Positions 9,501 to 30,948 of a stretch of 33,201 bases of DNA are shown here, piece after piece. Positions within the stretch are counted from its first letter, which is position 1. Every line of letters starts with the position of its first letter. Under the pieces are notes generated by a model, which had not been told where the DNA came from, made no database searches, and saw nothing but the letters and a program-made list of their open reading frames with translations. The stretch is from Gemmatimonadetes bacterium SCN 70-22 (GTDB lineage: Bacteria; Gemmatimonadota; Gemmatimonadetes; Gemmatimonadales; Gemmatimonadaceae), in NCBI GenBank assembly GCA_001724275.1, contig MEDZ01000003.1, positions 1 to 33,201 on the forward strand, in the 5' to 3' direction. The position numbers were made by a program, and so were the translations under genes.

Positions 9501-10487
9501 GTCCTCGGCGAGCGCCTTGCCCGTGGCCTCGCTCTTCGGGCTCTCCGGGTCGACGTAGGCCTCCTCGTAGATCGCGAGCAGCAGGTCGAAGGCGTATAGC
9601 AGGAAGTGCCCGCTGCCGCAGGCCGGGTCGAGCACGCGCAGATCGCGCGGGTCCTTCTTCGCACGCGGCGCGAACTCCTCGCCGGGCTTGCGGACCATGT
9701 ACTCGCACTTGTCTGCGAGCGCGGTCTTCGTGCCGCGCATCTCGTACCAGATGCGGCCGAGCGTGTTGTCGGTGAGGAACTGCACCACGTAGCGCGGGGT
9801 GAAGAACTGGTTGCGCACCGCCAGCTCGCGGCTGTTGCGAGGGGCCTGACTCTCCTCGCGCATCTTGCGGCGCTCGTCCTGGCTGTTGAAGAACTGGTAG
9901 ACCCAGCCGATGGTCTCGTCCTCGCCCCATACGCGGGCAAGCTCGGTGGCGTTCAAGATCTCGCGGAGCTGCTCGAAGGTCGCGCGCTTCGGCCACAGTA
10001 CGCTCGACGGGTCGCGGCGGTCGAAGAGGACCTTTACCTCGGTCGACAGCTCATCGAAGAGCGACTCGATGTAGAGCCGGTACCCCGCGCTGTCGGGCAG
10101 GAGCGGAAGCCCGGGCGCCATGCCGCAGAATTCGCGGTAGCCGGCGGACTGCTCGCCCTTCGTGATGCACTCCTGCATCAGGTCCCGGGCCTCAAGCATC
10201 TTGAGAGCGACGAAGCGGTTGAGCGTCGTGAACGCGGCGTCCCGCAGGTAGTCGCGAGCGGCATCGGCAGCGCCCATGCCCGCGGCACGCTTGTGCTCGA
10301 TGGCGGCGACGATGCGCTCACGCTGGAACGCCTGCCGGGCCGAGAGGTGGCCGCCGGCCTTCGCGGCCACCGCGCCGTCACGGTGCACGTCGAAGTCGCC
10401 CTCAAGCTGCGCGGCGAAGTCCTCCTCGAGGAGCTTCCGCGCGCGCTGGGTGGCGCGTTCGATGGCGTTACGGGTCTCCTTATCCAT
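6552..10487 (-). CDS. pglX: PglX, complete second BREX adenine methyltransferase
   Basis: Intact PglX of about 1311 aa, the N6-adenine methyltransferase that marks host DNA in BREX. Order: N-terminal helical domain (1-280), SAM-binding motif I DPACGSGHF at about 285-293, catalytic motif IV NPPFG at about 505-509, a divergent target-recognition region (about 560-1000), an acidic stretch (GEDEEDELGES), and a conserved C-terminal helical region ending in a basic SGGRRGGGRRKS tail. The ATG at 10485-10487 forms TGATG with the stop of the pglX C-half; a TTG one codon upstream is less likely. Residues 80-260 and the last 250 are almost identical to the split paralogue, but the central recognition region is not, so the two enzymes should differ in target site. 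Confidence 0.93.
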   Translation of the reverse strand: MDKETRNAIERATQRARKLLEEDFAAQLEGDFDVHRDGAVAAKAGGHLSARQAFQRERIVAAIEHKRAAGMGAADAARDYLRDAAFTTLNRFVALKMLEARDLMQECITKGEQSAGYREFCGMAPGLPLLPDSAGYRLYIESLFDELSTEVKVLFDRRDPSSVLWPKRATFEQLREILNATELARVWGEDETIGWVYQFFNSQDERRKMREESQAPRNSRELAVRNQFFTPRYVVQFLTDNTLGRIWYEMRGTKTALADKCEYMVRKPGEEFAPRAKKDPRDLRVLDPACGSGHFLLYAFDLLLAIYEEAYVDPESPKSEATGKALAEDYPSLDALQKAAPGLVLAHNLHGVDIDPRCAQIAQLALWMRAQKAYRDFGIGRGDRAQIRRSNIVVAEPLVADDQIAKEFVAKLGDAELGRVFTSLVESLSLAGDLGLLLRVEKLVRTTRKQGELFAPPEERIRAAVDRFVRDENGTLSTRRRLFTDDAAHGVALLSISEKNFDAVLMNPPFGDGTIRARKELESSYPRTKNDIYAVFVERGIELLIDRGLLGAITSRTGFFLTSFQRWREDIILANAPPAVFADLGLGVMDAALVEAAAYCLERSSSNGERRTVFLRVLEELEDKAQALSAAVLRPDEKGMHRRFDVSPVTFSAVPGSPFAYWVSDALRSVFQHQPAFEAEHREARQGLATADDFRFVRLWWEVAMRESIGTPTGKWFPFAKGGPYSPFYFDLHLMVNWQSDGVEIVTLTKPSSDRPASRPQNTGYFSRPGLTWPRRTKSELSFRVMPRGCVFGDKGPAAFVDQDGSQALLSTLALATSKAFRSLVEFQLAAADAKAGGAARSYEVGVIQRTPLARTTDAQERALAGTAHQAWAMKRALDSCIETSHAFALPDGPNAHRGDFDRADMERRIAALQQEIDESAFGLYGIGLEDRAAIEASFSRASTTPDAAADGEDEEDELGESSAGQGGVIASIASWLVGVAFGRFDPRLATRERSIPPEPEPFDPLPSRSPGMYPEGEEPSDRPDILVDDEGHADDLAARAIAVAERVKVDAPENLRAWLAKEFFPLHIRMYSKSRRKAPIYWQLATPSASCSVWLYIHAFSKDTLFRVQNDYVAPKLAHEERRLESLTSELRDGATAAQRKTLAAQEAVVDELRAFLDEVKRVAPLWKPNLDDGVIINFAPLWRLLPQNKSWQKELKSTWDALCEGKYDWAHLAMHLWPERVVRKCAKDRSVAIAHGLEDVFWVEGSDGKWTARKTPTRSVDELVRERTSPAVKSALRSLLEAPAAAGKSGGRRGGGRRKSAAAADGGDA
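6560..7280. repeat. Direct repeat copy A: 3' end of intact pglX
   Basis: This stretch of about 720 bp, encoding the last 240 residues of the intact PglX, is highly similar at DNA level to 10492-11212, at an offset of about 3932 bases. Many runs match exactly, including around the AFSKDTLFRVQND, WKPNLDDGVIINF and WDALCEGKYDWAHLAMHL coding segments. Same orientation, so it is a potential site for unequal recombination or gene conversion. Boundaries are by eye. Confidence 0.8.
9585..10240. repeat. Direct repeat copy C: N-terminal block of intact pglX
   Basis: DNA encoding roughly residues 80-300 of the intact PglX, including motif I, is closely similar to 17085-17735 in the pglX N-half (offset about 7492). 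Shared protein runs include SAGYREFCGMAPGL, LPDSAGYRLYIESLFDEL and NATELARVWGEDETIGWVY. Boundaries are by eye. Confidence 0.8.
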
Positions 10488-12682
10488 CAACCACCTAATG
10501 CGGCTGTTGCAGATGGCTTGCGACGCCCATCAGAACGACGCCCACTGCTCTTGCCGGCGGCCGCAGGCGCGTCGAGCACGCTCTTCAGCGAGGACTTTAC
10601 GGCGGGCGAGGTTCGCTCCCGCACAAGCTCGTCCATGCTGCGCGTGGGCGCTTGGCGAGCGGTCCACTTGCCGTCGGTGCCCTCGACCCAGAACACTTCC
10701 TCGAGCCCGTGGGCGATGGCGAGGCTGCGGTCCTTCGCGCACTTGGGCACCACCCGCTCGGGCCAGAGGTGCATCGCGAGGTGGGCCCAGTCGTACTTGC
10801 CCTCGCAGAGAGCGTCCCAGGTGGACTTCAGCTCCTTCTGCCAAGACTTGTTCTGCGGAACGAGCCGCCAGAGCGGAGAGAAGTTGATGATGACGCCGTC
10901 GTCGAGGTTTGGCTTCCAGAGCGGCGCGACGCGCTTCACCTCGTCGAGAAACGCGCGCAGCTCGTCAACGAGCGCTTCCTGCGCGGCGAGGGTCTTGCGC
11001 TGGGCGGCCGTCGCGCCGTCGCGAAGCTCGGCGGTGAGCGACTCGAGGCGCCGCTCCTCATGCGCGAGCTTCGGCGCTGCGAAGTCGTTCTGTACGCGAA
11101 AGAGCGTGTCCTTACTGAATGCGTGGATGTAGAGCCACACCGAGTAGCTCGCAGATGGCGTGGCGAGCTGCCAGTAAATCGGCGCCTTGCGACGGCTCTG
11201 GCTGTAGCGCTTGATGTGCGACTCAAAGAAGTCGCGAGCGAACCAGGTTCGCATGTCTGGCGTGCCGAGGAGCTCGGCGGCCTCGCGCCAGCGCGCGTTG
11301 TCGTCGTCGAAGACCGTATCGAACACCGACCGAACGGCGCGAACGAGGTCGCGCGGGTGACCGGAGTCGTCGACGAGGATGCCGTCCGTCGGGAAGGTCA
11401 TCGGGTAGCCCGACGGTGGCACGGCGACTGGTAGGCCATCGTCGTCCGTCAGCATTCCAGGCGAACAGACGGGCAGCGGGTCGAAGGGCTCCGGTTCGGG
11501 CGGACCAGCGCGTTCGCCGGTCGCGAGGCAGACATCGAAACGGCCGAAGGCTACGCCCAACGTCCACGAGAGAAGGGAGGCTACCATCGGCGCAGGGTCG
11601 ACCTCTTCCGCGACACTAGCCTCATGATCCGACTCGTCGTCGAACTCGGATTCGGGGGCAGGCTCTTCCTCCGATTCGGTCAACACCTCCAGCGGCGAAA
11701 CGGTCTCAAGGTCCCCGAGAAACACACCGTACAGACCTGCACAGATGTCATTCAGTTCGTTCTCCACTATCCGAACCGCATCTCGAGCGGCGGCAGCGGA
11801 GTTTGAGGCGGCCTGGGACCGCTCGGCGAGCGTGGCTGATGGATCATTTCCTGTTGCTAACAGCGGCGGGAGCACGAAAGCGTGGGATATCTCGTTTCGA
11901 GAGTCGAGCCTCCTCACAGTTCGCCATCCTCCCGTACACAATTCGACAATGCGAAGCTCCACCGCTTGGTGGGGCAGTGGAAATGGCGCCGCGTTTATTA
12001 CGCCGGTCTCATACTGGAAGCCGCCCGCCTTGCCAGCGAATAGCGAAATCGCTGCATTGAAGGGAACCGAGTTGAAGATGCCGAGACAGAGCGGCAGCTC
12101 GTCGAGGGGCGCGAGTGCGACCTTGCCTCCGACACTGAAGGCGCAGTCTGCAGGAAGAGCTTGCGCAGAAAACACGACCCCGCGTAGAGGCCAAGTTACG
12201 GCGGGCTTGAGGTAGTGGTCTGCAGAGACGGGCTTCGGGTTCCACCGTCCGGGCCGACCGACGAAGCCGTGGAAGCTCAGTCGCTTCTCATCCCACCGAA
12301 CGAGTACAGGAACGTCAGCGTAGAATCGAGCAAAGCGTCCCCCTTTCGCGAACCCAACCCACCGCGGACCGGTGCTCTTAAGGGCGGGGCGAACCTCCGC
12401 CCAGAAGCGGACATATCTGAAGTCGTCACACGTCGATGCTCCCTGCAGGGCCGTTCGCTTATCGTTTTCGTAGCGCGGCAGTCGATGGAACGCGCTAATG
12501 AGCGCTTCGGATGCCCAATAAGCGAAGGGTGCCGTCGGAACTCGATGGATCGCCTCCGTGTCCACGCGAAAAACGCGACGAACACCGTGTAAGTTCGGCT
12601 CGCGGCTCCCGATGAGAGCTTTCAGTAGTTCGCCTTTGGAGTCTACCGGCGCGTCAATAACCCTAAAGAAGATCGTCTTCAT
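10487..12682 (-). CDS. pglX: PglX C-terminal half (target recognition plus C-domain) of split PglX
   Basis: This 731-aa protein starts at ATG 12680-12682, giving MKTIFFRVID, which aligns with RTVFLRVLEE in the intact PglX immediately after its YCLE segment. It therefore covers the region after the methyltransferase domain: recognition region (about 1-330, divergent from the paralogue), acidic linker (TESEEEPAPESEFDDESD), FGRFD/EPEPFDPLP segment, and a C-terminal 250 residues nearly identical to the intact copy. It has no motif I or NPPF of its own. The start overlaps the stop of the upstream NTPase gene (TGATG, 12680-12684) and its stop overlaps the start of the intact pglX. The open frame continues 69 codons further upstream inside the NTPase gene but without family similarity. 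I infer that it pairs in trans with the N-half. Confidence 0.85.
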   Translation of the reverse strand: MKTIFFRVIDAPVDSKGELLKALIGSREPNLHGVRRVFRVDTEAIHRVPTAPFAYWASEALISAFHRLPRYENDKRTALQGASTCDDFRYVRFWAEVRPALKSTGPRWVGFAKGGRFARFYADVPVLVRWDEKRLSFHGFVGRPGRWNPKPVSADHYLKPAVTWPLRGVVFSAQALPADCAFSVGGKVALAPLDELPLCLGIFNSVPFNAAISLFAGKAGGFQYETGVINAAPFPLPHQAVELRIVELCTGGWRTVRRLDSRNEISHAFVLPPLLATGNDPSATLAERSQAASNSAAAARDAVRIVENELNDICAGLYGVFLGDLETVSPLEVLTESEEEPAPESEFDDESDHEASVAEEVDPAPMVASLLSWTLGVAFGRFDVCLATGERAGPPEPEPFDPLPVCSPGMLTDDDGLPVAVPPSGYPMTFPTDGILVDDSGHPRDLVRAVRSVFDTVFDDDNARWREAAELLGTPDMRTWFARDFFESHIKRYSQSRRKAPIYWQLATPSASYSVWLYIHAFSKDTLFRVQNDFAAPKLAHEERRLESLTAELRDGATAAQRKTLAAQEALVDELRAFLDEVKRVAPLWKPNLDDGVIINFSPLWRLVPQNKSWQKELKSTWDALCEGKYDWAHLAMHLWPERVVPKCAKDRSLAIAHGLEEVFWVEGTDGKWTARQAPTRSMDELVRERTSPAVKSSLKSVLDAPAAAGKSSGRRSDGRRKPSATAALGG
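10492..11212. repeat. Direct repeat copy B: 3' end of pglX C-half
   Basis: Partner of 6560-7280 in the same orientation. The close DNA match, against the divergent sequence just inside it, suggests recent duplication or ongoing gene conversion of the C-terminal coding block. Boundaries are by eye. Confidence 0.8.
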
Positions 12683-14316
12683 CACCGCACCTCCCCGTCG
12701 CGCTTGAGCGGAACCCCGCCCCGGCGCGCCAGCTTGAAGCCAAGTCGATAGATGTCCGGCACGTCGAGGCGCCCGGTCTTCATCTCCCGCCAGACGCCAA
12801 GTTCCGCGAGGCGCTTCCGCGCGCTGTCGGCCGAGTCGACCTCGGCCGCGACGACATCCGCATCCGAGAGCGCGTCTGTCTCGTGCCACCGCGCCTCCGC
12901 GTCGGGGAACTCAAAGGGCACTGCCACGTGCCCGACGAGCGCCGCCATCAGCGGCTGCACCCAGGGATGCTCGGCGATCTCGCCAACCCGAATACGGGAC
13001 GCCTCGTGTACACCGGCGTGGAGGCTGCGGAAGTGGACCGCGAAGTCGTGATCCGCGTCATGGTCAGCCGTGTGCGACACTGCCGTGGTCAGAGCGGAAA
13101 GGAAGCTGCGCGGGCTGATGTCACCGTGGGCATCCGCCAAGTGCGTAGGCAGCCACCGATACGGAAATCCCTTGCGGGCGCTCTCGCCCATGAAAGGACC
13201 GGTGAGCCGGTGGAAGAGCCGCTCCTGCATGGCCGGCTCGAACTGTGACTCGGGCGGAGGCGCCCAGTTGACGGCTCCCGAGAGCCTGAGGATCTCCTGC
13301 TTCTCGTCCCTGCCGAGGCCGCGGCCCTTGAGCTTGTGCTCGAAGAGCGTCGTGTACAGGTCCTGGCGGTACTCTGCGCCCCGCAACGGGTGGTTGCCGA
13401 GGAGCTGCCAGAGCAGGCCGTACAGCTCGGTCGTCAACCAGCGCAGCGACGCCGTCGAGGCCCGCAGTTTCGACGCGTCGGGGAAGCGACCGACGCGTCG
13501 GTCCGCGAACTGATCCGTGCGCAGGAAGACCTTGGCGCGCAGGTGGCGAAACGAGCGGAGCTCGAGCGCGAGTTGACAGAGGCCTTCCACCAGGCTGTAG
13601 AAGGTGGCGGCGTCATCCGCTGCGTCGTCGATGGCGTCGAAGACCCAGATGCTGTCGCGCTCGATGGCGTGCAGGGCCTCGTCGAACTGCTGCAGCAGCC
13701 GATCGACGGCCTCGGGCTGGTCCACCGCCCAGGCGACGCGCTCCTCCCAAGAGTCGACAGCCGGTAGTAGGAGGTCCACCGGCGGAACCTGCCGCCCATC
13801 GACGCCCGATCCGTCCCAGAGTCCCGTGCCGACGTCGCCTCCACCACCAGAGCCCGTCCGGTCTCCCTGGCCCGCGCCATTGTCCGCATTCCGGCCGAGA
13901 CCATGCTCGGCTGCATAGCGCGACGCGCTCCAAACAACAACCGCCTTCCAGACGAGGCGCGACTTCTGCCCGGCGCCCAAGAGGCGGGCGAACACGTCCT
14001 TGGTTGGGTACTGCTTCAGGTCAGGCGTCTTCCCGAAGCCCGGGAAGACGAGAGTCTCCTCGCGGATTCGAACATCGGGCGCCGCGCGGGCAAGGAGCCC
14101 GCGGTGCTCTCGGGACTGAAGCGCAGCCCACCAGTAGCTCTTGCCCATGCCACGGTCGCCGAGCACCACCGGGATGTTGATGTGGAGCGCGCGCGCGTGA
14201 GACTTCGGCACGAAGAACTGGTGCCTGGGCGGAGGGGCGCCGTATTCGGCGCTCTCGGCCGGAAGGGCGTCGCGAATCAGCTCGCGGAGTTCCCCCGTGC
14301 GCATGCGTGTGCTCAT
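12682..14316 (-). CDS. P-loop NTPase of the cassette inside split pglX
   Basis: A 544-aa protein with Walker A at 53-60 (GDRGMGKS) and a Walker B-like strand at about 223-230 (IWVFDAID). A following strand ending in KVFLRTDQF could carry a sensor-like Arg. Residues about 139-175 form a Gly/Asp-rich, low-complexity linker between Walker A and B. The C-terminal 60 residues (RKRLAELGVWREM, then DIYRLGFKLARRGG) look like a winged-helix element. The general plan resembles STAND/KAP-like signalling ATPases, but I cannot assign a named family. The start overlaps the KGGVGR ATPase stop by ATGA (14313-14316) and the stop overlaps the pglX C-half start. The coupling to both suggests a shared complex or fixed stoichiometry. 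Confidence 0.75.
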   Translation of the reverse strand: MSTRMRTGELRELIRDALPAESAEYGAPPPRHQFFVPKSHARALHINIPVVLGDRGMGKSYWWAALQSREHRGLLARAAPDVRIREETLVFPGFGKTPDLKQYPTKDVFARLLGAGQKSRLVWKAVVVWSASRYAAEHGLGRNADNGAGQGDRTGSGGGGDVGTGLWDGSGVDGRQVPPVDLLLPAVDSWEERVAWAVDQPEAVDRLLQQFDEALHAIERDSIWVFDAIDDAADDAATFYSLVEGLCQLALELRSFRHLRAKVFLRTDQFADRRVGRFPDASKLRASTASLRWLTTELYGLLWQLLGNHPLRGAEYRQDLYTTLFEHKLKGRGLGRDEKQEILRLSGAVNWAPPPESQFEPAMQERLFHRLTGPFMGESARKGFPYRWLPTHLADAHGDISPRSFLSALTTAVSHTADHDADHDFAVHFRSLHAGVHEASRIRVGEIAEHPWVQPLMAALVGHVAVPFEFPDAEARWHETDALSDADVVAAEVDSADSARKRLAELGVWREMKTGRLDVPDIYRLGFKLARRGGVPLKRDGEVR

Positions 14317-15620
14317 GGCGCTTCCTCCGACAGGAAGGTTCGGTCGAACCAGTCGAAGAGCTTCCCATAGGCTGCGCCGATCGGGCCTTCCTGGAGCGCG
14401 CTGAGCGGGTCGAACGCCACGAGCCCTTCATCGAAGAGCACCTCGCGAGGGTAGTGGTTTGCCGATTCGTCCGTCGGCTGGAAGTTGAACACGGAAACAG
14501 GATCCCTGAGGTCTTCCGAGGCCTCCGGCGGCTGATCGTAGAGGGTCTCCCAGAACAGCTTGTAGGCACCGTCGCGGAGGCCCTCTACGTATGCCTCACC
14601 ATCTTTCCTCGGGACCATCGACCCGATCACCCAAAGCCTGTCGCGGAAATCGCGGACGCCTGGATGAGAACGCCAGTGCTCAAACAGGAAGCGATAAGCC
14701 GCCCAGGTCTGGCGCGTGTCCACCGCGAACATCAAAGTGTCGGCGCCCATCGCAAGGATAAGCGCGGCGCTCGTGTCATGAAGGCCGGTTCGGCTGTCGA
14801 GCAAGACGATGTCGGGCTTCTCTTGCTCTTCGAGATCCCGAACCAACCTTAGCAGCCGGTGCGGCCAGAACTCATGCCCCGTCGGACCGCGCTCGAGGTA
14901 GGCGCGCCCCAGCTTGGGAAGGTAGTCGCCTTGGTCATCAGGATGAGTGCTCGCACCGCGGAAGCCGGTGTCCGTTCCGAAGCAGGGGACGACGAGCACT
15001 TTGCCGTTCGTCGCGACTCCAAGCTCGCTCTCGGCAACCATGTGCGGCAACACGAGGGGGCCTTGTCCGACCGCGTCCTCCACGAACCAGTCGACGACGC
15101 CGAATCGAGGCAAGCTCTTGCCCAAGAGCGTCGTCCCGACTCCGGGCGATTCGAGGTCGAGATCGAGAACCATCACCCGCCTGCCCTTCTTGGCGAGGTG
15201 CCAGGCGAGCGCCGTTGCGGTCGTCGATCGGCCTACCCCTCCCTTCATGGAGAAGAGCGTGAATCGCTTCCGTCCACCTGACTCAACGGGCGGAGACGCA
15301 CCCCAATCGGTCCCTGTCAGCAGGCGGTCTACGAGGACCGCCTGAGCACCGCCCTCTACCTCGAGAATCACACGTGCGGATCTTGCCGCCGTTCCGATGT
15401 CGGACTCCCCAAGGAACGTCGACGTGGGCGCGTACCCGTAGACTCCGAGCGCATCGGACAACTCGGCCGCAAGAGTATCGGCAACGTCGGCCCGATCGTC
15501 GGGCAGGACCACGCGGAACTTGCCGTAGAGGTCGCGAACCAGGACCACTGCTCGAGCAGGATCGCCGAGGTGCTGAAGCGCGATCTCCGCGGCTTTGGAG
15601 AGGGCGTCGTTGAACATCAT
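14313..15620 (-). CDS. KGGVGR-motif ParA/MinD-like ATPase
   Basis: A 435-aa protein. Residues 1-115 form a separate N-terminal domain I do not recognise. The rest is a SIMIBI-class ATPase of the ParA/MinD type: deviant Walker A at 126-133 reading KGGVGRST, where the usual Lys before Ser/Thr is Arg; then VLDLDLESPGVG at about 151-162 and a Walker B-like strand DIVLLDSRTGL. The first (signature) Lys of KGGVG is kept. This variant matches a recognised group of KGGVGR ATPases often found near defence genes, whose biochemistry I do not know. MinD/ParA proteins dimerise over ATP and recruit partners; here likely partners are the coupled NTPase and the HEPN-like protein. The start is ATG at 15620, overlapping the preceding stop (TGATG). 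Confidence 0.8.
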   Translation of the reverse strand: MMFNDALSKAAEIALQHLGDPARAVVLVRDLYGKFRVVLPDDRADVADTLAAELSDALGVYGYAPTSTFLGESDIGTAARSARVILEVEGGAQAVLVDRLLTGTDWGASPPVESGGRKRFTLFSMKGGVGRSTTATALAWHLAKKGRRVMVLDLDLESPGVGTTLLGKSLPRFGVVDWFVEDAVGQGPLVLPHMVAESELGVATNGKVLVVPCFGTDTGFRGASTHPDDQGDYLPKLGRAYLERGPTGHEFWPHRLLRLVRDLEEQEKPDIVLLDSRTGLHDTSAALILAMGADTLMFAVDTRQTWAAYRFLFEHWRSHPGVRDFRDRLWVIGSMVPRKDGEAYVEGLRDGAYKLFWETLYDQPPEASEDLRDPVSVFNFQPTDESANHYPREVLFDEGLVAFDPLSALQEGPIGAAYGKLFDWFDRTFLSEEAP

Positions 15621-16033
15621 CAGAGCACCCCGTCAAGAATCAGTTGCTTCAACAGCTGGTTGCAGTCCGTCGCAGCCGCCATGTGGGGGGCGACAGACGC
15701 TCTCGAGAAGTGATGTCGGCCCCAGTATCGTTGGTTGACATTCCATGTCCCGAACGGGTTCGTTGGAGACAGGTAGGCGGCGTATTTCGCCTCGAACAGA
15801 CCGCTCGCGAACGATTGGAAGCCCGACCAAAGAACATCGATGTGCGTTTTGTGGCCATCCGGCCAGTCGCCGTTCTTCGCCAGAGGGTGACCAATGCCGA
15901 GCATCACGGCCTTTAGGGCGCACTCGGTCGAGACGCCAAACAGATGGTCGGCGTTGGCGAACCTCGCGCAGCCCTCAAGATGGAAGCCGTCGTCGTAATG
16001 CCTCTCCGCAGCATCTCTCCAATCGGTGCTCAT
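15620..16033 (-). CDS. Small HEPN-like protein at the head of the cassette
   Basis: A 137-aa, mostly helical protein. The segment ARFANADHLFGVSTECALKAVM at about 23-44 resembles the first long helices of HEPN-type nucleotidyltransferase/RNase partner proteins, and R102-YWGR-H107 gives an R-x4-H arrangement like the HEPN RNase motif, although the residue after Arg is Tyr where a polar residue is usual. If HEPN is right, it could be an RNA-cleaving effector or a structural subunit; similarity is recognised only by eye. Its ATG overlaps the stop of the pglX N-half (ATGA, 16030-16033), and its stop overlaps the start of the KGGVGR ATPase (TGATG). It is therefore made directly after the methyltransferase half. 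Confidence 0.6.
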   Translation of the reverse strand: MSTDWRDAAERHYDDGFHLEGCARFANADHLFGVSTECALKAVMLGIGHPLAKNGDWPDGHKTHIDVLWSGFQSFASGLFEAKYAAYLSPTNPFGTWNVNQRYWGRHHFSRASVAPHMAAATDCNQLLKQLILDGVL

Positions 16034-17979
16034 GCAGCGGCCTCCTTGCGCAGGCAGTAGGCCGCGACCTCGACCATCGCGCTGTCGAGAACGCCTTGGC
16101 CGAGGTCGGCGAAGACGATGGGCGGTGCCTCCTTCAGCAGAATCTCCTCACGCCACTTCTGGAAGCTCGAAAGAAAGAACCCGGTGCGAGACGTGACCGC
16201 TCCCAGGTAGCCCGTAGGGTGCAGGAGCTCGATGCCGCGCTCCACGAAGGCCGCGTAGACGTCGTTCCTTGTCCGCGGATAGGCGGACTCGAACTCCTTC
16301 TTCGCCGCTAGGCTGGCCGCGCCGAAGGGCGGGTTCATGAGCACCACATCGAAGCGCTTGCGGCAGAGGTCGATGAACGCGATGCCCTGCGCGGCATCGT
16401 CGGCGAAGAGCTGGCGGCGGACGCTCATCGACGCCGGCGCACCGGCGGCGTACTCTTGCAGGGCCTGGACGATGCGCTCCTCGGCCGAGTCGAAGAAGGA
16501 CTCATCAGAGACGCCGGAGAGGTCGAACTCGAGCTGGGGGTTCCGTGGGAGATCGAGTCCGGGCAGGATCCTCTGCGGCTCTCGTTGTTCGCGAAGAAAC
16601 TGCTCCCGCGCTTTCGCCACCGCGCTCTGGAGTGCCTGGTCGAGCTTGAGCAGCGAGCCGACCTCCCCGGCAAGGCGCATCTCCTCGACCATCCGCTGGA
16701 ATAGCGCGCCAAGCACCTGCGGCCGAAGCGACGAGGCGAACTCCACCACCATGCTTCGGTCCCCCGGCATCGGCTCAGCGGTGACGACGTTCGTGCGCTC
16801 GATCAGCGGGCGGTCTTGGGCCGCGACCTGGTGGTCGTTGTATGCGCGCTGCGCCCGCATCCAGAGCGCGAGACCAGCGATCTGCGCCGCGCGCGGGTCG
16901 ATGTCGACGCCGTGGAGGTTGTACTTGAGGATCAGCTCGGGGACGGCGCGGCGCAGGGCCAGCTCGGAGTCGTAGTCCTCTTTGAGTGTCCGGCCGGTGA
17001 CCTCAGATTTCGGCGTGGCCTCGGCACGCCAAGCCTCCTCGTAGATGCCGAAGAAGCTATGCGTGGGATCGCCGGCGAGCAGGTCGAAAGCGTAGAGCAG
17101 GAAGTGGCCGGAGCCACACGCGGGGTCCAGTACGCGCAGATCGCGAGGGTCTTTGGCGGGGCGCTCCTCGAAGCCCTCTTCGGGCTTCACGAGATATTCG
17201 AGGTGGGCGAGCTGCGAGTCGGCTCCACGCATCTCACACCACGTCCGGCCGAGCGAGTTGTCGGTCAGGAACTGGACGACGTAGCGCGGGGTGAAGAACT
17301 GGTTGCGGACGGCGAGCTCCCGGCTGTTGCGTGGGGCTTGGCTCTCGGCCCGCATCTGGCGACGCTCGTCTTGGCCGTTGAAGAACTGGTAGACCCAGCC
17401 AATGGTCTCGTCCTCGCCCCACACCCGCGCGAGCTCGGTGGCGTTCAGAATCTCGAGGAGCTTCTCGAAGGTCGCGCGCTTGGGCCAGAGCATGCTCGAT
17501 GGATCGCGACGGTCGAAGAGAACCTTCACCTCGGTTGACAGCTCGTCGAACAGCGACTCGATGTAGAGCCGGTAGCCGGCGCTATCGGGCAGGAGCAGAA
17601 GACCTGGCGCCATACCGCAAAACTCACGGTAGCCCGCCGACTTATCGCCTCTGGTGATACACTCCTGCACGAGCCTCCGGGCCTCGAGCATCTTGAGTGC
17701 CACGAAGCGGTTGAACGTGGTGAAGGCAGCATCGCGCAAGAAGGTTGCGACAGCGGTCGCGGAGGTGATGCCCTGCGAGCGCTTGTGAGCCACGGCGGCC
17801 ACCAGCTTGTCCCACAGCACGCGGTCGCGAAGAGACAGGTGCGCACCGGGGGCGAGCGGGATCCGTCCATCGACGAAGATGTCATAGCGGCCCTCAAGCT
17901 GCTCCCTGAACTCCTGTTCGAGGAGCCGCCGCGCCTCTTGAGTGGCGCGTTCAATGGCGTTGCGTGTGTCCTTGTCCAT
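16030..17979 (-). CDS. pglX: PglX N-terminal (methyltransferase) half of split PglX
   Basis: A 649-aa protein aligning with the first half of the intact PglX, which is about 1311 aa. It has the N-terminal helical domain, motif I DPACGSGHF at about 285-293, and motif IV NPPFG at about 547-551. It ends at VEVAAYCLRKEAAA, exactly where the intact copy continues YCLERSSSNGERRTVF. All catalytic methyltransferase elements are present, while the recognition region is encoded 3.3 kb further along the operon. The segment between motifs I and IV is longer than in the paralogue (extra residues around LPGLDLPRNPQLEF). The ATG at 17979 has AGGGGC upstream and lies 13 bases after the brxC stop. The stop codon is shared in an ATGA overlap with the HEPN-like gene, so this end looks selected, not accidental. 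Confidence 0.9.
   Translation of the reverse strand: MDKDTRNAIERATQEARRLLEQEFREQLEGRYDIFVDGRIPLAPGAHLSLRDRVLWDKLVAAVAHKRSQGITSATAVATFLRDAAFTTFNRFVALKMLEARRLVQECITRGDKSAGYREFCGMAPGLLLLPDSAGYRLYIESLFDELSTEVKVLFDRRDPSSMLWPKRATFEKLLEILNATELARVWGEDETIGWVYQFFNGQDERRQMRAESQAPRNSRELAVRNQFFTPRYVVQFLTDNSLGRTWCEMRGADSQLAHLEYLVKPEEGFEERPAKDPRDLRVLDPACGSGHFLLYAFDLLAGDPTHSFFGIYEEAWRAEATPKSEVTGRTLKEDYDSELALRRAVPELILKYNLHGVDIDPRAAQIAGLALWMRAQRAYNDHQVAAQDRPLIERTNVVTAEPMPGDRSMVVEFASSLRPQVLGALFQRMVEEMRLAGEVGSLLKLDQALQSAVAKAREQFLREQREPQRILPGLDLPRNPQLEFDLSGVSDESFFDSAEERIVQALQEYAAGAPASMSVRRQLFADDAAQGIAFIDLCRKRFDVVLMNPPFGAASLAAKKEFESAYPRTRNDVYAAFVERGIELLHPTGYLGAVTSRTGFFLSSFQKWREEILLKEAPPIVFADLGQGVLDSAMVEVAAYCLRKEAAA
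17085..17735. repeat. Direct repeat copy D: N-terminal block of pglX N-half
   Basis: Partner of 9585-10240, same orientation. Recombination between the two copies would remove the whole three-gene cassette and the C-half, and restore a single continuous pglX. Boundaries are by eye. Confidence 0.8.
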
Positions 17980-23958: not shown

Positions 23959-24912
23959 TCACATCACCGTCCGCACCAGCGGCACGAGCGGATGGCAGGG
24001 TTCCGATGGTGCGACAACCACTCGATACCAGCGCGACAGGATGCGACACAGGCGCCGATCGGAACGCATCGCCTTGGTGAGTTCGCCTTCCAGTTCAGTC
24101 AACTTTGCGCTTGCCTCCGGTGTCAGGAAGTGATCGACAGCCCGGTCGCGCTTGGCGGAGTTACAGGAAGAGCAGAGCAGGAGAACATTGCCGCGCACGA
24201 CTAGTTCCTCTGCGTCGAGCATTACTAGGTTGCCGCCAGCGTTCTTGGCCCGCCACCAGTGATCCAGACACAGCGTGCGCGACGCTCCGCACACGACGCA
24301 GGTTCCGCCAAAGTGCCCGATGATGCTTGAGCTCCATTCACGCCGGACGTAGTTGTCGACTGGATTCCCGCGTCTGTAGTCGCCTTCGCTTAGGAGATAG
24401 CCATCCCGCGCAACTGCGGTCACGGAAAGCTGTCCGGTTCGGGTGCGTGAGAAGGCCCTGGCTGCAGCTCGTTTCTGCGCACTCGTGGCGCGAACCTTGG
24501 TTCGGAAGCGCGCTTGCGCCTCCGGAATGTGTTCGCTGAGCAGATGTTTGATGGTTGCGATACGACGACGCTGTTGTACGTATCTCAACTTGGCGACCTC
24601 CAGCGCACGTCGCTCGTCGACGGCCACCACAGGATTCACAACGTGCAGCGCAAGCAGAACTGAGTGGACCCATCCTACGGACGCGCGCTCTCGCGAGTTG
24701 ACCGCATCCTCGCATGCAGCGACTGCACTCTTCATATCAGCGAGCCTAGGTTCCAGCGCTGCGAGTCTGGCCTCCAACTCAGCGCGGACAAGAGTCCGAT
24801 CTCCTTCGATGAGGCCTTTCCGGCATTGACGGCAATATCGGGAGCGGGCACGAACTCCCGAAGAGGACCACGTCGCTCCGCAGCGCACACACCGATACTC
24901 GATCACGATCAT
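23959..24912 (-). CDS. Zinc-ribbon, coiled-coil, HNH nuclease
   Basis: A 317-aa protein starting at ATG 24910-24912, with GGGG about 7 bases upstream. The N-terminus is a zinc ribbon with CVRCG and YCRQC pairs at about 8-31. A helical, probably coiled-coil segment follows (about 38-75, ELEARLAALEPRLADM). A basic region precedes the HNH domain: CVVCG at about 204, LDHWW with the conserved His at about 217, a GGNL turn, then GNVLLLCSSCNSAKRD at about 235-252. The Cys pairs are structural zinc ligands and the His-Asn-type residues belong to a metal-dependent nuclease. The open frame extends 100 codons upstream, but that part has no recognisable features. The target is unknown; its position directly upstream of BREX on the same strand suggests a defence role. 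Confidence 0.75.
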   Translation of the reverse strand: MIVIEYRCVRCGATWSSSGVRARSRYCRQCRKGLIEGDRTLVRAELEARLAALEPRLADMKSAVAACEDAVNSRERASVGWVHSVLLALHVVNPVVAVDERRALEVAKLRYVQQRRRIATIKHLLSEHIPEAQARFRTKVRATSAQKRAAARAFSRTRTGQLSVTAVARDGYLLSEGDYRRGNPVDNYVRREWSSSIIGHFGGTCVVCGASRTLCLDHWWRAKNAGGNLVMLDAEELVVRGNVLLLCSSCNSAKRDRAVDHFLTPEASAKLTELEGELTKAMRSDRRLCRILSRWYRVVVAPSEPCHPLVPLVRTVM

Positions 24913-25592
24913 GGGAAGTCCCCACCCCTCGGGCCACGATGTCGAAGGATCTACGACTACTGAGCGATCAGTGCGGGCAAGTGTCTCCTGCTGTAGCAGG
25001 CTCCAACCCCTAGGGTCTGAAGGCCGCCAATCGGCGATTGTGCGGGAACTTCTGACCAGCTCTGATCTCCTCCCCGCTCCAGCAGGGAGGTCATCGGGGC
25101 GGATGGGGCTGCCTGTAGAAACGACAATGTATGACACGGTGGTGACGCTGTAAGAGTGTTGCGGGGACGCGACAGCGATGCCCGAGCGGATGCCTGGTAC
25201 TCGATCTGGCATCTTGGTGATCCCGGTTGCAGCTTCTCGACCTCAGCCGTGAGGTCACCACGCTCGATGCTGTCAGACTGGCGCGCGAGTTTTCTGTTGC
25301 CGTGATGGGAGGAATGGGGAGGGGACCCGTGTAGCCACGAAGACCGACGTCACCACCGCGTGTCGAGTGAGGGGCGCCCGCCTCGGGCCTTCGCCTTTCG
25401 ACCGGCCATCGCGTGCCCATCGAGTCACGTGCCGCCTCGGATACTCAAACGGCGCGGGGGCTCGCCCAGCCCAATCTTGCGGCTTCTGGTGCGACTCAAG
25501 CGCGTCCAGTCGCTCTCGAGTCCAATCGCTCGAACGTGGGCCAGCGCGCAAGTCCAGAGACGTACACTCAACTGACGGGAGGCACAGCCCTC
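24913..25592. other. Gene-free region between the divergent HNH and mcrB genes
   Basis: This holds the upstream regions of two divergent genes. Open frames continue into it from both sides but show no family similarity, so I treat it as non-coding. Small hairpins are visible (CCTGC/GCAGG at 24987-25000). No clear promoter pair was found. Confidence 0.5.
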
Positions 25593-27710
25593 GTGGATTT
25601 CGATGCTCGCCTGCAACAACTCTTCGAGGAATTTCGGACCGACTATCTGCTGACCGCCGATGGCAGCAAGCACCGTCAGGCGTACGCGAGCGGTCGGCAG
25701 AGCGCGCGGGCCAACCTCGGGGACATCACGGCGCGCGCCGACCGCCGCGAGGAGGTCACCGATCTCGTCCTCGCACGCCTCCTCCCCCACATCGACTCGG
25801 CGCGCCACCGGGAGGATGGTTCCTGGATCCACGTCGCCCCGGCGATCAACAAGGACATCAAGTCCTGGTACGAGGGAGCAGGGTGGGCAACCAAGAGCGA
25901 GTGGCCGGCGCGCGCCGCTCACATCCTGACGTTCATTCGACGTGTGGTCGACCAGCCGAGCGAGTTGGCCGATGCCTGTCGCCAATTCTCCGCGTCGCCC
26001 CTCGGCAAGGCGCTGCAATGCGGGATGATGACGCCCATCCTGAGCGCCCTTCGCCCAGACGACTTCTCGATCGTGAACACCAAGGTATGTCGCCTCCTCA
26101 AGGAAGTGACAGGAAAGGACTACACCTCGGCTCTGAAGAACTATCCCGACACCAACGCCGCCATTCACGAGCTTGTGGCGCGACATGACGGACTGTTCGG
26201 GACCGCGCAGCAGGCCGGCGTGTCTGCGCTCGAAGCGTTCGACATGATGGCCCATTGGTTCGTCGCCGTGCGCGAGGACGACGCCGATGAGCAGGGAAAG
26301 GGCGTCGATCGAACGTCTGCCGATGCCGCGCGTCGCGTCGTCGAGACCTTGTGCCCCGATTCGGCGCCGCGTGCAGCGGCGCTGGGCACACTGGCCCAAG
26401 CGATTCGCTTTGCACACGAACTCGGCCCCCAGTCCTGGTCCATCACCCTCAAGTCAGATCTCGTTCGGTTGAACGTCGGAGGTCTCATCGCGGTAGACCT
26501 GAGGAAGCAAGGGCTCGCGATGACTGTCGCGCAGGACGAGATGCCGCTGGAGACTATTCAGGCGCTGTCCGACGCTGAGCACTGGGAGTTCAAGTACATG
26601 GACCACGCCGTGTGCTACCTGCTCCCGTACGATGAGCTGGATCCGGCGGTGGGCCAACTTGGACCCGCGATGGAGGAGCATCTCCGGCGCGTGACGACGC
26701 GAACCCAGTTCGCCCCGTTCCGGACTGCGCACTCGCCGGGAGTGTTGACGATGCTGCGACAGCTCAAGTACGAGGTGCCCGATCCGGAGTACGCTGCTCC
26801 GCCCGCTCCCGGTGGAAGGATCGCCGAGCCGTTGCCGGGTCAGGGCGCGAGCACGGGTGCCGCACGGCAACCCCGCTATTCGCTGCAGGACCTCGCGCGG
26901 GAAACGCTTATGGATGAGGCGCTTCTCGGATCGTGGGTCCGAGCGATCAATCGCAAGGGGCAGGCGATCATCTACGGCCCGCCGGGGACCGGGAAGACGT
27001 ACGTCGCCGAGCGACTGTGCCGACACCTGGTATCGGGCGGCGACGGTGCCGCGGAACTGGTGCAATTCCACCCCGCCTACGCGTACGAAGACTTCATCCA
27101 GGGGCTGCGTCCGGAGACCAACGCGAACGGGGCGCTCAGCTACCGTATGATCCCGGGTCGCTTCATGGAGTTCTGCGAGCGCGCGGCGCGGGCAAGTGGG
27201 CCGTCGGTCCTCATCATCGACGAGATCAACCGCGCCAACCTCGCGCAGGTCTTCGGGGAGCTGATGTACCTGCTGGAGTATCGCGATCGCGAGGTGCCGT
27301 TGGCTGGCGGAGCGCGACTGCGCATCCCGCCGAACGTGCGGATCATCGGGACGATGAACACCGCCGATCGGTCGATCGCGCTGGTCGATCACGCCCTGCG
27401 TCGGCGATTCGCTTTTCTCCATCTCCTGCCTAATCACGAGATCCTCGAGCGCTATCACGTCAACACCTCGCTCGACGTTTCCAAACTCTGCGCGGTACTG
27501 AGTGAGCTCAACGCGGCCATTGCGGATCCGCACTATGCGGTCGGCATCTCCTACTTTCTGCGGGATGGGCTGGCGGAGGAACTGCCGATGATCTGGGAGT
27601 CGGAGATCGAGCCTTATATCGAGGAGCTCTTCTTCGATCGTGCCGACGAGATCGCGAAGTTCCGATGGAGCGCGGTGAAGTCCCGCGCGACGCCGGAGCT
27701 GATAGCGTAG
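25593..27710 (+). CDS. mcrB: McrB-type AAA+ GTPase of a modification-dependent restriction system
   Basis: About 705 aa from a GTG at 25593 with GGGAGG ten bases upstream; the frame is open from 25413, but that extra N-terminus looks unconserved. The C-terminal 250 residues are McrB-like: Walker A GPPGTGKT at about 461, the FHPAYAYEDFIQGLRP segment typical of the family, Walker B VLIIDEINRAN at about 539, and the MNTADRS signature at about 588, followed by ALRRRFAF. McrB hexamers hydrolyse GTP and drive McrC cleavage. The N-terminal 400 residues, which in McrB proteins read the modified base, are not the classical E. coli recognition domain and carry a helical WYEGAGW/PARAAHIL region. mcrC follows after 10 bases. 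Confidence 0.88.
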   Translation: MDFDARLQQLFEEFRTDYLLTADGSKHRQAYASGRQSARANLGDITARADRREEVTDLVLARLLPHIDSARHREDGSWIHVAPAINKDIKSWYEGAGWATKSEWPARAAHILTFIRRVVDQPSELADACRQFSASPLGKALQCGMMTPILSALRPDDFSIVNTKVCRLLKEVTGKDYTSALKNYPDTNAAIHELVARHDGLFGTAQQAGVSALEAFDMMAHWFVAVREDDADEQGKGVDRTSADAARRVVETLCPDSAPRAAALGTLAQAIRFAHELGPQSWSITLKSDLVRLNVGGLIAVDLRKQGLAMTVAQDEMPLETIQALSDAEHWEFKYMDHAVCYLLPYDELDPAVGQLGPAMEEHLRRVTTRTQFAPFRTAHSPGVLTMLRQLKYEVPDPEYAAPPAPGGRIAEPLPGQGASTGAARQPRYSLQDLARETLMDEALLGSWVRAINRKGQAIIYGPPGTGKTYVAERLCRHLVSGGDGAAELVQFHPAYAYEDFIQGLRPETNANGALSYRMIPGRFMEFCERAARASGPSVLIIDEINRANLAQVFGELMYLLEYRDREVPLAGGARLRIPPNVRIIGTMNTADRSIALVDHALRRRFAFLHLLPNHEILERYHVNTSLDVSKLCAVLSELNAAIADPHYAVGISYFLRDGLAEELPMIWESEIEPYIEELFFDRADEIAKFRWSAVKSRATPELIA

Positions 27711-27720
27711 AAGCTTCCCA

Positions 27721-28929
27721 ATGCCCTCGCAGCGCCTCCGAATCGTCGAGCATCGCGGCACCACCTTCCACCGCGACGCGCTCACGCACGCCCACGGGGA
27801 GACCATCCTTAGTAAGCTCGGCAGGCGCATCGACATTGAGTTTCCGACGCCGCGCACGGCCGATCGATGGATCCTGACGTCGCAGGGGTGGGTTGGTCTG
27901 CTGCGCGTCGACGACGACCTGACCGTCATCGCCGAGCCCAAGGTCCCCGTTGCCAACCTCGCGCGCATGCTGCAGGTCGCGCATGAACTCCCCATCGAGG
28001 TGCTAGACGGGCTGGTCACATGCGAGACGATCGAGGAGCTCTACGACCAACTGGCGAGGCTACTGGCCGACGCGGCGCTCTCGCTCGTGCATCACGGCCT
28101 GCACCACGTGTATCGACCCCATCAGGAGTTGCGCTCGTCGATCCGTGGCCGGCTGCTCCTCAACCACCTGCGGACGCCGCGGGCGGATCCACGGGTGACG
28201 TGCGCGTTCAACGAGCGCACGGCCGACACGATCGAGAACCGGATCGTCAGCGCCGCTCTGCATGCGGCGTTGCGAGGGGGATACTGCACATCGATGACGC
28301 GGGCGCATCTGCGCAAGGGACTGCGCCAGTTCGTCGGGCGGGTGACGCCGACTGTAGTGAGCGTGGAGGATGTCGACCAGCTGCGGTATGATCGACTCAC
28401 GGCGCGCTACCGTCGCGTGCACGCGCTGGCGCGATTGTTTCTGGACGAGCGTTCCCCGTTGGCACGGGAAGGAGATCGCACGAGCCTCCCTTTCCTGCTC
28501 CACATGCCCTCCCTGTTCGAACGGTTCGTGGAGCGGTGGCTCAGATTCCGCATCGAGCGCGACGTACTACCGCTGCGCGTGCTGCGGCAGGAGAAGTTCC
28601 GTGTCGGCGATCCGGATGCCGTGGTCTTCAGCATGGATGTTGTCATCACAGACAACGTGGGGCGCCCGATTTGCGTGCTGGACACGAAGTACAAGGACGC
28701 CGGGGTACCGGCTGCGGGCGATGTCGCGCAGGTGGCCTTCTATGCGCAAGCGACGGGCGCTCGCAGCGCGGGGTTGATCTACCCAACGCCCCTGAACGGG
28801 ACATGGCAGGGGAATAGCGGCTCTGTCAACGTCTTCGCACATCACTTCGATCTCTCCGGCGATCTCGAGCGAGCGGGAGGACAGTTTCTTTCCGGACTCC
28901 TCCATCACATCGGGACTCTACCGAGCTGA
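27721..28929 (+). CDS. mcrC: McrC-type nuclease subunit
   Basis: A 402-aa protein with a beta-rich N-terminal domain that contacts McrB in the family, a helical middle (SLVHHGLHHVYRP, SSIRGRLLLNHL, NERTADTIENRIV), and a C-terminal PD-(D/E)XK nuclease core. The catalytic residues are likely the Asp of MDVVI at about 307 and the DTKYK triad at about 320-324, followed by the FYAQATGARSAGLIYP helix-strand. In complex with McrB it cuts DNA bearing modified bases. The start ATG lies 10 bases after the mcrB stop, so the two form an operon. Confidence 0.9.
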   Translation: MPSQRLRIVEHRGTTFHRDALTHAHGETILSKLGRRIDIEFPTPRTADRWILTSQGWVGLLRVDDDLTVIAEPKVPVANLARMLQVAHELPIEVLDGLVTCETIEELYDQLARLLADAALSLVHHGLHHVYRPHQELRSSIRGRLLLNHLRTPRADPRVTCAFNERTADTIENRIVSAALHAALRGGYCTSMTRAHLRKGLRQFVGRVTPTVVSVEDVDQLRYDRLTARYRRVHALARLFLDERSPLAREGDRTSLPFLLHMPSLFERFVERWLRFRIERDVLPLRVLRQEKFRVGDPDAVVFSMDVVITDNVGRPICVLDTKYKDAGVPAAGDVAQVAFYAQATGARSAGLIYPTPLNGTWQGNSGSVNVFAHHFDLSGDLERAGGQFLSGLLHHIGTLPS

Positions 28930-28944
28930 CACGAGAACACATGC

Positions 28945-30033
28945 ATGCCGATCAAGACTGAACTCTGGAAGGTTGCAGCTTCTCCGTCTCCGCTCGTCGA
29001 GTCGAAGTTGCCGAGCGAGAGGCTGCTGGAAGACATGATTGTCGCGCAGCCCAGCCTCCTGTCGGAGGAATGGATGCTCATCGGCCGGCAGGAAGACACC
29101 GGCTACGGCGGGCGCATCGACCTGCTGGCGATCGCGCCGGATGGCGTGCTGGTCCTGATCGAGCTCAAGCGCGATCGCACACCGCGCGAGGTCGTCGCGC
29201 AGGCGCTCGATTATGCCACGTGGGTCGAGCGCCTGCAGCCGGAGGACATCGCGGCGATTTATGGGCGATTCGCCCCGGGGCGTCGACTCACCGACGATTT
29301 CCAGGCTCGCTTCGGCCAAGCGCTCGACGAGGCCTCGCTGAATGACTCACACCTCATCGTCGTCGTGGCCTCCGCCCTCGACGCGAGCACCGAGCGGATC
29401 GTCAATTATCTCAGTGATCGCGAAGTGCCGCTCAACGTCTTGTGCTTCCAGGTGTTTGCGGCTGGGAGCGAGCAGTTTCTAAGCCGCACATGGCTCATCG
29501 AGCCAGCCAAGACACAGGTCAATGCGTCGACGTCGCCAGAGGATTCGAAGGAGCCGTGGAACGGCGAGTACTACTGTTCATTTGGCCGCGGGGCCGAGCG
29601 TTCGTGGGAGGATGCCGTCGACTTCAGCTTCATCTGCGCCGGGGGTGGAAGTTGGTACTCGAACACGCTGAAGCTCCTTTCGCCTGGCGACCGCGTATGG
29701 GTCAAGGTACCGGCAACGGGCTTTGTCGGCGTAGCGCGCGTGACCGGGTACTCCACGCCAGCGAGTGCATTCACGAGGGTCGTTGACGGCAAGGATCGGC
29801 CGGTGTTCGAGGTCGCGACGCGCGGCAACTATCATCGGCAGTTCATGGACGATCCCGAGAAGTGCGAATACTTCGTGCCGGTGCGCTGGCTCCAGACGGT
29901 GCCGCTCGATGGCGCGATCCAGGAGATCGGGATGTTCGGGAACCAGAACTCGGTCTGCAAACCGACGACGCCGAAGTGGCGGAAGACGGTGGAACGGTTG
30001 AAGGAGGTATTTCCTGGACACGCCACAAGCTGA
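28945..30033 (+). CDS. NucS-like PD-(D/E)XK nuclease with PUA/EVE-like C-terminal domain
   Basis: A 362-aa protein with two parts. Residues about 25-165 form a DUF91/NucS-like nuclease domain: GRIDLLAI at about 55-62 with the metal-binding Asp, LIELKRDR at about 71-78 with the E-x-K pair, and QALDYATWV at about 90. The C-terminal part (about 200-350) has a PUA/EVE-like look: SFICAGGGSWYSNTLKLLSPGDRVWVKVP, then GVARVTGY and a YFVPVRW strand. EVE/PUA barrels bind modified bases, so this may be a stand-alone modification-sensing nuclease or an accessory to McrBC, whose stop is 15 bases upstream. The nuclease assignment is firmer than the C-terminal one. Confidence 0.7.
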   Translation: MPIKTELWKVAASPSPLVESKLPSERLLEDMIVAQPSLLSEEWMLIGRQEDTGYGGRIDLLAIAPDGVLVLIELKRDRTPREVVAQALDYATWVERLQPEDIAAIYGRFAPGRRLTDDFQARFGQALDEASLNDSHLIVVVASALDASTERIVNYLSDREVPLNVLCFQVFAAGSEQFLSRTWLIEPAKTQVNASTSPEDSKEPWNGEYYCSFGRGAERSWEDAVDFSFICAGGGSWYSNTLKLLSPGDRVWVKVPATGFVGVARVTGYSTPASAFTRVVDGKDRPVFEVATRGNYHRQFMDDPEKCEYFVPVRWLQTVPLDGAIQEIGMFGNQNSVCKPTTPKWRKTVERLKEVFPGHATS

Positions 30034-30099
30034 TGTTCTCAGACTCTGATGCTTTGTCAGATGAAGTCGAGATTCACGAAACGGAGAGAGGAGGAGGCG

Positions 30100-30414
30100 A
30101 TGACGGCGCGAAAGCGGAAGACTCGCGTGACAGCTGAGATGATGATGCCGTCGAATGACTTGGCACGCATCGTCGGCGACGCGCCTAAGTCGCGTACGCA
30201 GATCGCGAAGGCGATCTGGGAGTACATCGATCGACACGGACTGCAGGATCAACGGTACAAGCGAAACATCAACGCCGACGCGCGGCTCGCGAAGATCTTT
30301 GGAGGGAAGCGGGTCGTCAGCATGTTCGAGCTTGCTGCGATGGTCGAAAGTCACCTCCGAAGGGCAGATGACAAGATGTCGCCGGAGAGGCGCGTTCGAG
30401 GTAAGAGCAAGTAA
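30100..30414 (+). CDS. SWIB/MDM2-domain protein
   Basis: A 104-aa basic protein starting at ATG 30100 directly after an AGGAGG-rich leader; two in-frame ATGs upstream (30049, 30061) are less well placed. A SWIB/MDM2 fold is readable over about residues 17-85: LARIVGDAPKSRTQIAKAIWEYI, then LQDQRYKRNINADARLAKIFG and VSMFELAAMVESHL. The tails are Lys/Arg rich and may contact DNA. In eukaryotes this domain belongs to chromatin factors; in bacteria it occurs as small proteins or fused to topoisomerase I, and is suspected to be nucleoid-associated. Its presence at the end of a restriction operon is odd. The function here is unknown. Confidence 0.85.
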   Translation: MTARKRKTRVTAEMMMPSNDLARIVGDAPKSRTQIAKAIWEYIDRHGLQDQRYKRNINADARLAKIFGGKRVVSMFELAAMVESHLRRADDKMSPERRVRGKSK

Positions 30415-30456: not shown

Positions 30457-30948
30457 GTGGCGCGGCCCTCCGAGGTCAGTGTCGCTCGGTTCCTCGACAA
30501 GAATGCCGAACTGGACGCAACGGCAACGCGCACGGTCCGCCGAGAGCAGAAGTTGCTGCGGCAACTCAAGTTCGCAGGGAAGTCAGAGGCCCACTGTGCC
30601 ATTTGCGGTCGCGCGCTTCCCGTCGAACTTCTTGTGGCGGCCCACATCAAGCCGCGGAGTCGCTGCTCCGCGGCCGAGAAGAAGCGCGTCGACGACAACG
30701 TGATGGGAGTGTGCGTCCTGGGATGCGACGCCCTCTTCGAGCGAGGGATCGTCTACGTGCAGCAGGACGGGAAGGTACAGTCGGCGGCCAGCGGCGCCCT
30801 GACGCAATCTCTCACAGAGCACGTCTCCAAGCTGGTGGGAAGAGTCTGCACAGCGTGGACTCCTGCATCTGAGCGATTCTTCGCATGGCATGCCGGGCAT
30901 CACGAGGCGATCCGTCGTCGCACGGAGGCTCAGCGGCTCGGGACATGA
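30457..30948 (+). CDS. HNH endonuclease-like protein, 163 aa
   Basis: Starts at GTG 30457, 42 bases after the SWIB gene and in the same frame. After a helical N-terminus, residues about 47-110 form an HNH_2-like domain: CAICG, then LLVAAHIKPRSRC with the conserved AAHI His, then DDNVMGVCVLGCDALFERGIVYV. The usual N-G-x-x-L-C...H of the second half is altered to a Cys-containing NVMGVCVLGCDALF, a variant I have seen in this family. It probably is a metal-dependent nuclease of the accessory type; specificity is unknown. It could be co-transcribed with the mcrBC operon. Confidence 0.7.
   Translation: MARPSEVSVARFLDKNAELDATATRTVRREQKLLRQLKFAGKSEAHCAICGRALPVELLVAAHIKPRSRCSAAEKKRVDDNVMGVCVLGCDALFERGIVYVQQDGKVQSAASGALTQSLTEHVSKLVGRVCTAWTPASERFFAWHAGHHEAIRRRTEAQRLGT

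Follow-up and report, generated by a model that had tools for sequence, protein, structure and literature searches.

An McrBC-type operon followed by a candidate modification-dependent endonuclease of the PDC-S11 family next to a BREX locus

A division of labour between defences against unmodified and modified DNA has been demonstrated, according to sections of PMC8565348 and PMC11411939, for TgvAB, which is encoded in a Type I locus of Vibrio, and for BrxU, which is encoded beside BREX. Among the sensors of modified bases, the EVE domain of VcaM4I, which flips 5mC and 5hmC, is an experimental model for a sensor of this type, as described in part of PMC7897488. Passages of PMC7641849 already report the association of EVE domains with Type I restriction-modification (RM) systems and with PD-(D/E)XK nucleases, targeting modified DNA, and predict that EVE-PD(D/E)XK fusions are type IV enzymes. 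Among the papers searched, none names both NucS and an EVE domain, and neither NucS nor DUF91 occurs in the passages and the term count taken from the McrBC census PMC11090510. The family PDC-S11 is a catalogue entry, to which the relevant sections of PMC10855318 and PMC12813430 assign no mechanism. Two correlations are given in these sections (PMC10855318/PMC12813430): in Streptococcus suis, PDC-S11 is among co-occurring subtypes that include RM type IV, and in a set of Pseudomonas aeruginosa strains, 90% of 10 strains with PDC-S11 were phage resistant.

In the window, that is the whole stretch of 33,201 nucleotides of DNA that was analysed, ORF calls place three genes one behind the other on the plus strand: an mcrB-like AAA+ gene (25593-27710), the gene of the McrBC nuclease subunit, mcrC (27721-28929; PF10117, E 7.9e-37), and a gene encoding a protein of 362 amino acids, hereafter NUC (28945-30033). 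The gaps are 10 bases between mcrB and mcrC and 15 bases between mcrC and NUC. The mcrB frame is open from 25413, and the GTG at 25593 is the likelier start, since it is preceded by GGGAGG (25577-25582) and since homology with cyanobacterial McrB proteins begins nearby. McrB is an AAA_5 protein with a McrB-type motor core (26967-27410; PF07728, E 2.2e-22); it carries the Walker A motif GPPGTGKT and the motif MNTADRS. An mcrC gene downstream of such an AAA+ gene is the arrangement of a McrBC operon. The presence of a NucS-like PD-(D/E)XK nuclease gene 15 bases after mcrC, noted earlier, was confirmed by these ORF calls and by the fold match given below. Directly downstream of NUC, a SWIB-domain protein and a small HNH endonuclease-like protein are encoded (30049-30414 and 30457-30948).

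A BREX locus is also encoded in the window, on the minus strand (1954-22907), in the order brxA-brxB-brxC-pglX...pglZ-brxL. One of its pglX copies is cleanly split into an N-terminal half (16030-17979; profile positions 4-659) and a C-terminal half (10487-12889; profile positions 664-1330) by genes matching the candidate system PDC-M28, namely B (14313-15620) and C (12682-14316), and is followed by an intact pglX (6552-10490). Between BREX and mcrBC, a frame of 417 amino acids (23959-25212, minus strand), divergent from mcrB, shows only weak zinc-ribbon and HNH-type signals.

NUC is a member of an already catalogued candidate family: it matches PADLOC PDC-S11 (PDLC04916) over its whole length (511 bits, E 2.7e-154, NUC residues 1-357, profile positions 1-355 of 358). 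The PDC families reportedly come from a preprint describing new defences against viruses that are embedded in immune systems. The nuclease domain of NUC (residues 1-195; 28945-29529) contains the Pfam NucS_C domain at residues 25-93, with a score of 25.1 bits that is barely over the cut-off of 24, and the NCBIfam NucS model is matched at positions 129-201 of 250 only, that is in its later half. An alignment of NUC from the window with relatives from 47 of the 80 loci described below (58-71% identity) shows that D59, E73, K75 and Q86 are kept in all 48 sequences, arranged as in a PD-(D/E)XK site. The same 48-row alignment was used for an AlphaFold2 model (mean pLDDT 83, pTM 0.52), which has two domains whose mutual placement is uncertain in view of this pTM and which was compared with known structures by Foldseek and VIA-align. 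In this model, residues 24-179 match NucS of Pyrococcus abyssi (2vld_A; Z 12.4, rmsd 2.1, 108 aligned residues); the N-terminal domain of NucS is absent from NUC, and an EVE/YTH fold occupies the C-terminal half instead.

This C-terminal domain (residues 205-356; 29557-30012) was delimited on the basis of the AlphaFold2 model, of structure matches and of a weak profile match. Residues 206-357 match PH1033 (1wmm; Z 10.9, rmsd 2.7, 117 aligned residues) and the EVE domain of VcaM4I (6yex_B; Z 10.3, rmsd 3.4, 122 aligned residues); MJECL36 is matched as well (Z 10 to 11), and YTH domains score lower (Z about 9). The order of its structural elements agrees with the description of EVE in passages of PMC7641849. 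Pfam gave no EVE match in NUC, and when profiles were compared with those of 30 EVE domains from the taxonomic family of the window, the alignment was in register but weak (P 0.0024, probability 12%), so that the EVE-like assignment is founded on the predicted fold. The earlier note had proposed a PUA/EVE-like domain joined to a NucS-like nuclease; the guess was right as far as the fold is concerned, since the model combines a NucS-type domain with a C-terminal fold of the EVE/YTH type (PUA superfamily). NUC shows two features of modification-dependent endonucleases with a PUA-superfamily sensor, namely a domain of the EVE/SRA/YTH kind, here by predicted fold, and a nuclease domain of modelled fold with a conserved catalytic motif. 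Judging from the model, the EVE-fold domain may read modified bases.

Full-length relatives of NUC are rare in the window's phylum: the PDC-S11 profile matches 37 of 298 genomes, most of them through the nuclease part alone, and is matched over its full length in four, this one included. In the three others, respectively, (i) an Mrr gene lies 122 bp upstream of the NUC relative on the same strand, (ii) hsdR, hsdS and hsdM lie downstream on the opposite strand, and (iii) the gene is on a 3.2-kb contig. A sample of two classes (293 + 289 genomes), drawn evenly around two centre genomes carrying NUC, contained six further NUC genomes at E<=1e-40 (6/580 non-centre genomes). NUC has no match in PHROGs; it was found in 94 plasmid records, of which six contexts were read.

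The company of NUC was studied with profiles for Hsd, McrB, McrC, Mrr and NUC that were built here in three iteration rounds. The 80 loci examined rank highest among 113 confirmed relatives from one-genome-per-species data, a set which therefore leans to close relatives, and 13 of them have less than 7 kb of upstream sequence. An Hsd homologue, a term that covers more than verified Type I systems because the profiles can admit related methylases and helicases, is encoded in 57 of the 80 loci, and homologues of all three Hsd genes in 39, often in the order hsdR-hsdM-hsdS-NUC. In 23 loci, an HsdS homologue lies directly upstream of NUC, on the same strand and within 150 bp, and Pfam confirms hsdR, hsdM and hsdS in one locus (L043). 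A genome control with HsdM_N drew on 50 of the 80 loci, and 49 NUC genomes (231.6 Mb) were searched, with 78 places typed among those listed; up to 34 HsdM_N places, in 29 genomes, fall within the range of a NUC locus versus 0.29 expected by chance, these 34 being matched by coordinates alone on any contig, some of them possibly by coincidence on short contigs. No Hsd homologue was within reach in 23 of the 80 loci, and in the class-wide sample Hsd homologues are near NUC in only two of six, so that the link with restriction systems is frequent and not obligatory. Other partners, seen once or twice, are an IIG-type methyltransferase with a MADS-like ATPase, a DISARM/IIG-like methyltransferase and Druantia DruE3; a further one is an Mrr-like gene, past which lie brxL and pglZ. 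Of the nine NUC loci on viral contigs, seven include an Hsd homologue, and in five of these seven HsdS adjoins NUC; at L213-L217 and L219, on contigs filed as viral, NUC comes after Type I RM genes. With such an occurrence, the Type I RM-NUC cassette is apparently carried by proviruses or satellites. Type I RM is thus the most frequent company of NUC.

The best explanation, to which we attach a moderately good probability, is that the locus consists of a McrBC-type operon and, behind it, a self-contained modification-dependent (type IV-like) endonuclease, NUC, which is an exchangeable companion of restriction systems. In this account, cleavage by the NucS-type PD-(D/E)XK domain would follow once the EVE-fold domain had flipped and bound a modified base of the foreign DNA. 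NUC would travel with restriction systems, most often straight after a Type I hsdS, and would here have been placed behind mcrBC, acting alongside McrBC and not as one of its subunits. It would intercept phages with modified DNA that methylation-based systems, here BREX, fail to stop. For the idea, already put forward for this locus, that an enzyme against modified DNA complements BREX, there are demonstrated cases, beside BREX and within RM, in the BrxU and TgvAB sections of PMC8565348 and PMC11411939. The base read is probably not the N6-methyladenine of the host, which NUC should tolerate since it is often encoded together with N6-adenine methyltransferases (HsdM, and PglX of the BREX locus in the window); more probable candidates are modified cytosines or hypermodified bases.

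The same diversity of partners could also suit a back-up effector, that is a NUC which would not itself read modified phage DNA but would be set off once a phage has disabled or evaded the neighbouring restriction system, or by damaged DNA left by that system, and would then degrade DNA and possibly kill the cell. NUC does accompany many unlike systems, its nuclease domain is of the type of the mismatch and branched-DNA enzymes NucS/EndoMS, and auxiliary and back-up nucleases found near BREX are the subject of a survey, as passages of PMC12839542 indicate. However, neither a dedicated partner gene nor an antitoxin was found beside NUC, and fusions of an EVE sensor with a nuclease are typical of enzymes that depend directly on modification, which makes this explanation unlikely.

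Less likely again, and in our opinion improbable, is that NUC is a plug-in reader-cutter that couples physically to unrelated DNA-translocating machines (HsdR, McrB, DruE and those of DISARM/MADS type), the present case being a split-reader McrBC. If this were true, NUC would give each machine the ability to sense modified bases and, in the window, would replace the reader missing from McrB.

The earlier note proposed an expanded type IV machine; as part of it, NUC would be a working subunit of McrBC and would provide in trans the base-reading function missing from McrB. The gap of 15 bases on the same strand is in its favour, as is a McrB in which Pfam detects no reader. Indeed, no known recognition domain is among the Pfam matches listed for McrB (25 of 27 families, E<=1), so that the claimed absence of a classical recognition domain holds at the level of Pfam only; the AlphaFold2 model of the N-terminus, built on a five-row alignment, is poor (pLDDT 47) and does not extend this claim to the fold. 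Two regions can be distinguished there: N1 (25617-26282), common to McrB proteins of Calothrix and Nostoc plasmids, and N2 (26352-26867), which recurs ahead of the P-loop in four large AAA proteins from the phylum. Relatives of the N-terminal region were found in 3 of 296 genomes of the phylum, the window included, once and weakly among 321 genomes of a single class, and not in viral contigs; in plasmid records, the two Calothrix and Nostoc McrBs are the only N1 matches and N2 has no relatives. In a 1056-aa AAA protein (L208, 2971-6141), the P-loop is preceded by an N2-type region, of which a second, weak copy lies farther upstream. The Calothrix and Nostoc McrBs that share N1 are preceded by small PUA-type genes, located between a GNAT gene and mcrB (L142, 4402-4896; L204, 2598-3074), whose EVE scores of 20.8 and 22.9 bits lie below the cut-off of 23. 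These genes speak in favour of the expanded machine, but they also follow the GNAT gene and may belong to it.

The linkage of NUC to McrBC outside the window tells against this machine. McrC was detected in none of the 80 NUC loci of close relatives, none of the nine on viral contigs and none of the six in the class-wide sample, with a profile that matched 25 ORFs among 30 short McrB loci (L112-L141). Conversely, NUC was absent from the two cyanobacterial plasmid McrB regions and from the 20 McrB regions fetched in the phylum, where greedy gene picking may hide McrB or McrC and NUC matches were given priority. Five of the 49 NUC genomes contain PF10117, never within the range of the NUC locus. 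The sole match to the McrB profile among the 80 loci, at L100, is a Clp-type ATPase and was excluded. The proposal that the three genes form one expanded McrBC system therefore failed the linkage test, the mcrBC-NUC trio having been found in no other set examined, and we regard it as quite improbable; no second example of the trio appeared in the material searched. Elsewhere the restriction systems that NUC follows are mostly different ones, so that the trio gives the impression of an exchangeable part of defence set beside McrBC rather than of a new fixed machine.

A NucS/EndoMS-like nuclease for mismatch or lesion repair, standing beside mcrBC by chance, is very improbable: its nuclease domain is nearest to NucS/EndoMS in fold and sequence, but the N-terminal half of NucS is lacking, the gene is rare and patchy at the six occurrences in the sampled genomes, it is in strong excess beside Type I RM, and it is carried by viral contigs and plasmids.

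In comparison with the described systems, the locus resembles McrBC type IV restriction by its mcrB-like AAA+ gene and its mcrC, and differs from it by a McrB whose N1 and N2 regions match no Pfam reader and by NUC as a third gene. NUC shares with NucS/EndoMS the C-terminal PD-(D/E)XK nuclease domain of the latter, whereas it has no NucS N-terminal domain and has an EVE-fold domain added at its C-terminus. It corresponds to PDC-S11 from end to end, and its position behind mcrBC was seen in no other relative examined; the proposed mechanism would give PDC-S11 a concrete candidate function, and the cassette hsdR-hsdM-hsdS-NUC recurs, also on viral contigs. With VcaM4I and other modification-dependent endonucleases of the EVE-nuclease type, NUC has in common an EVE-fold sensor fused to a nuclease; VcaM4I, however, is composed of an N-terminal EVE domain and an HNH nuclease, whereas NUC begins with its NucS-type PD-(D/E)XK domain and ends with the EVE fold. 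BrxU and TgvAB both belong to the GmrSD family, and no relation of either to NUC was found in any comparison made. The likeness lies in the arrangement: as in the BrxU/BREX and TgvAB/Type I RM pairs treated in parts of PMC8565348 and PMC11411939, a modification-dependent enzyme would be encoded with a methylation-based system and would provide complementary cover. If this explanation is right, the idea drawn from these two pairs extends to a different enzyme family, common to many defence systems.
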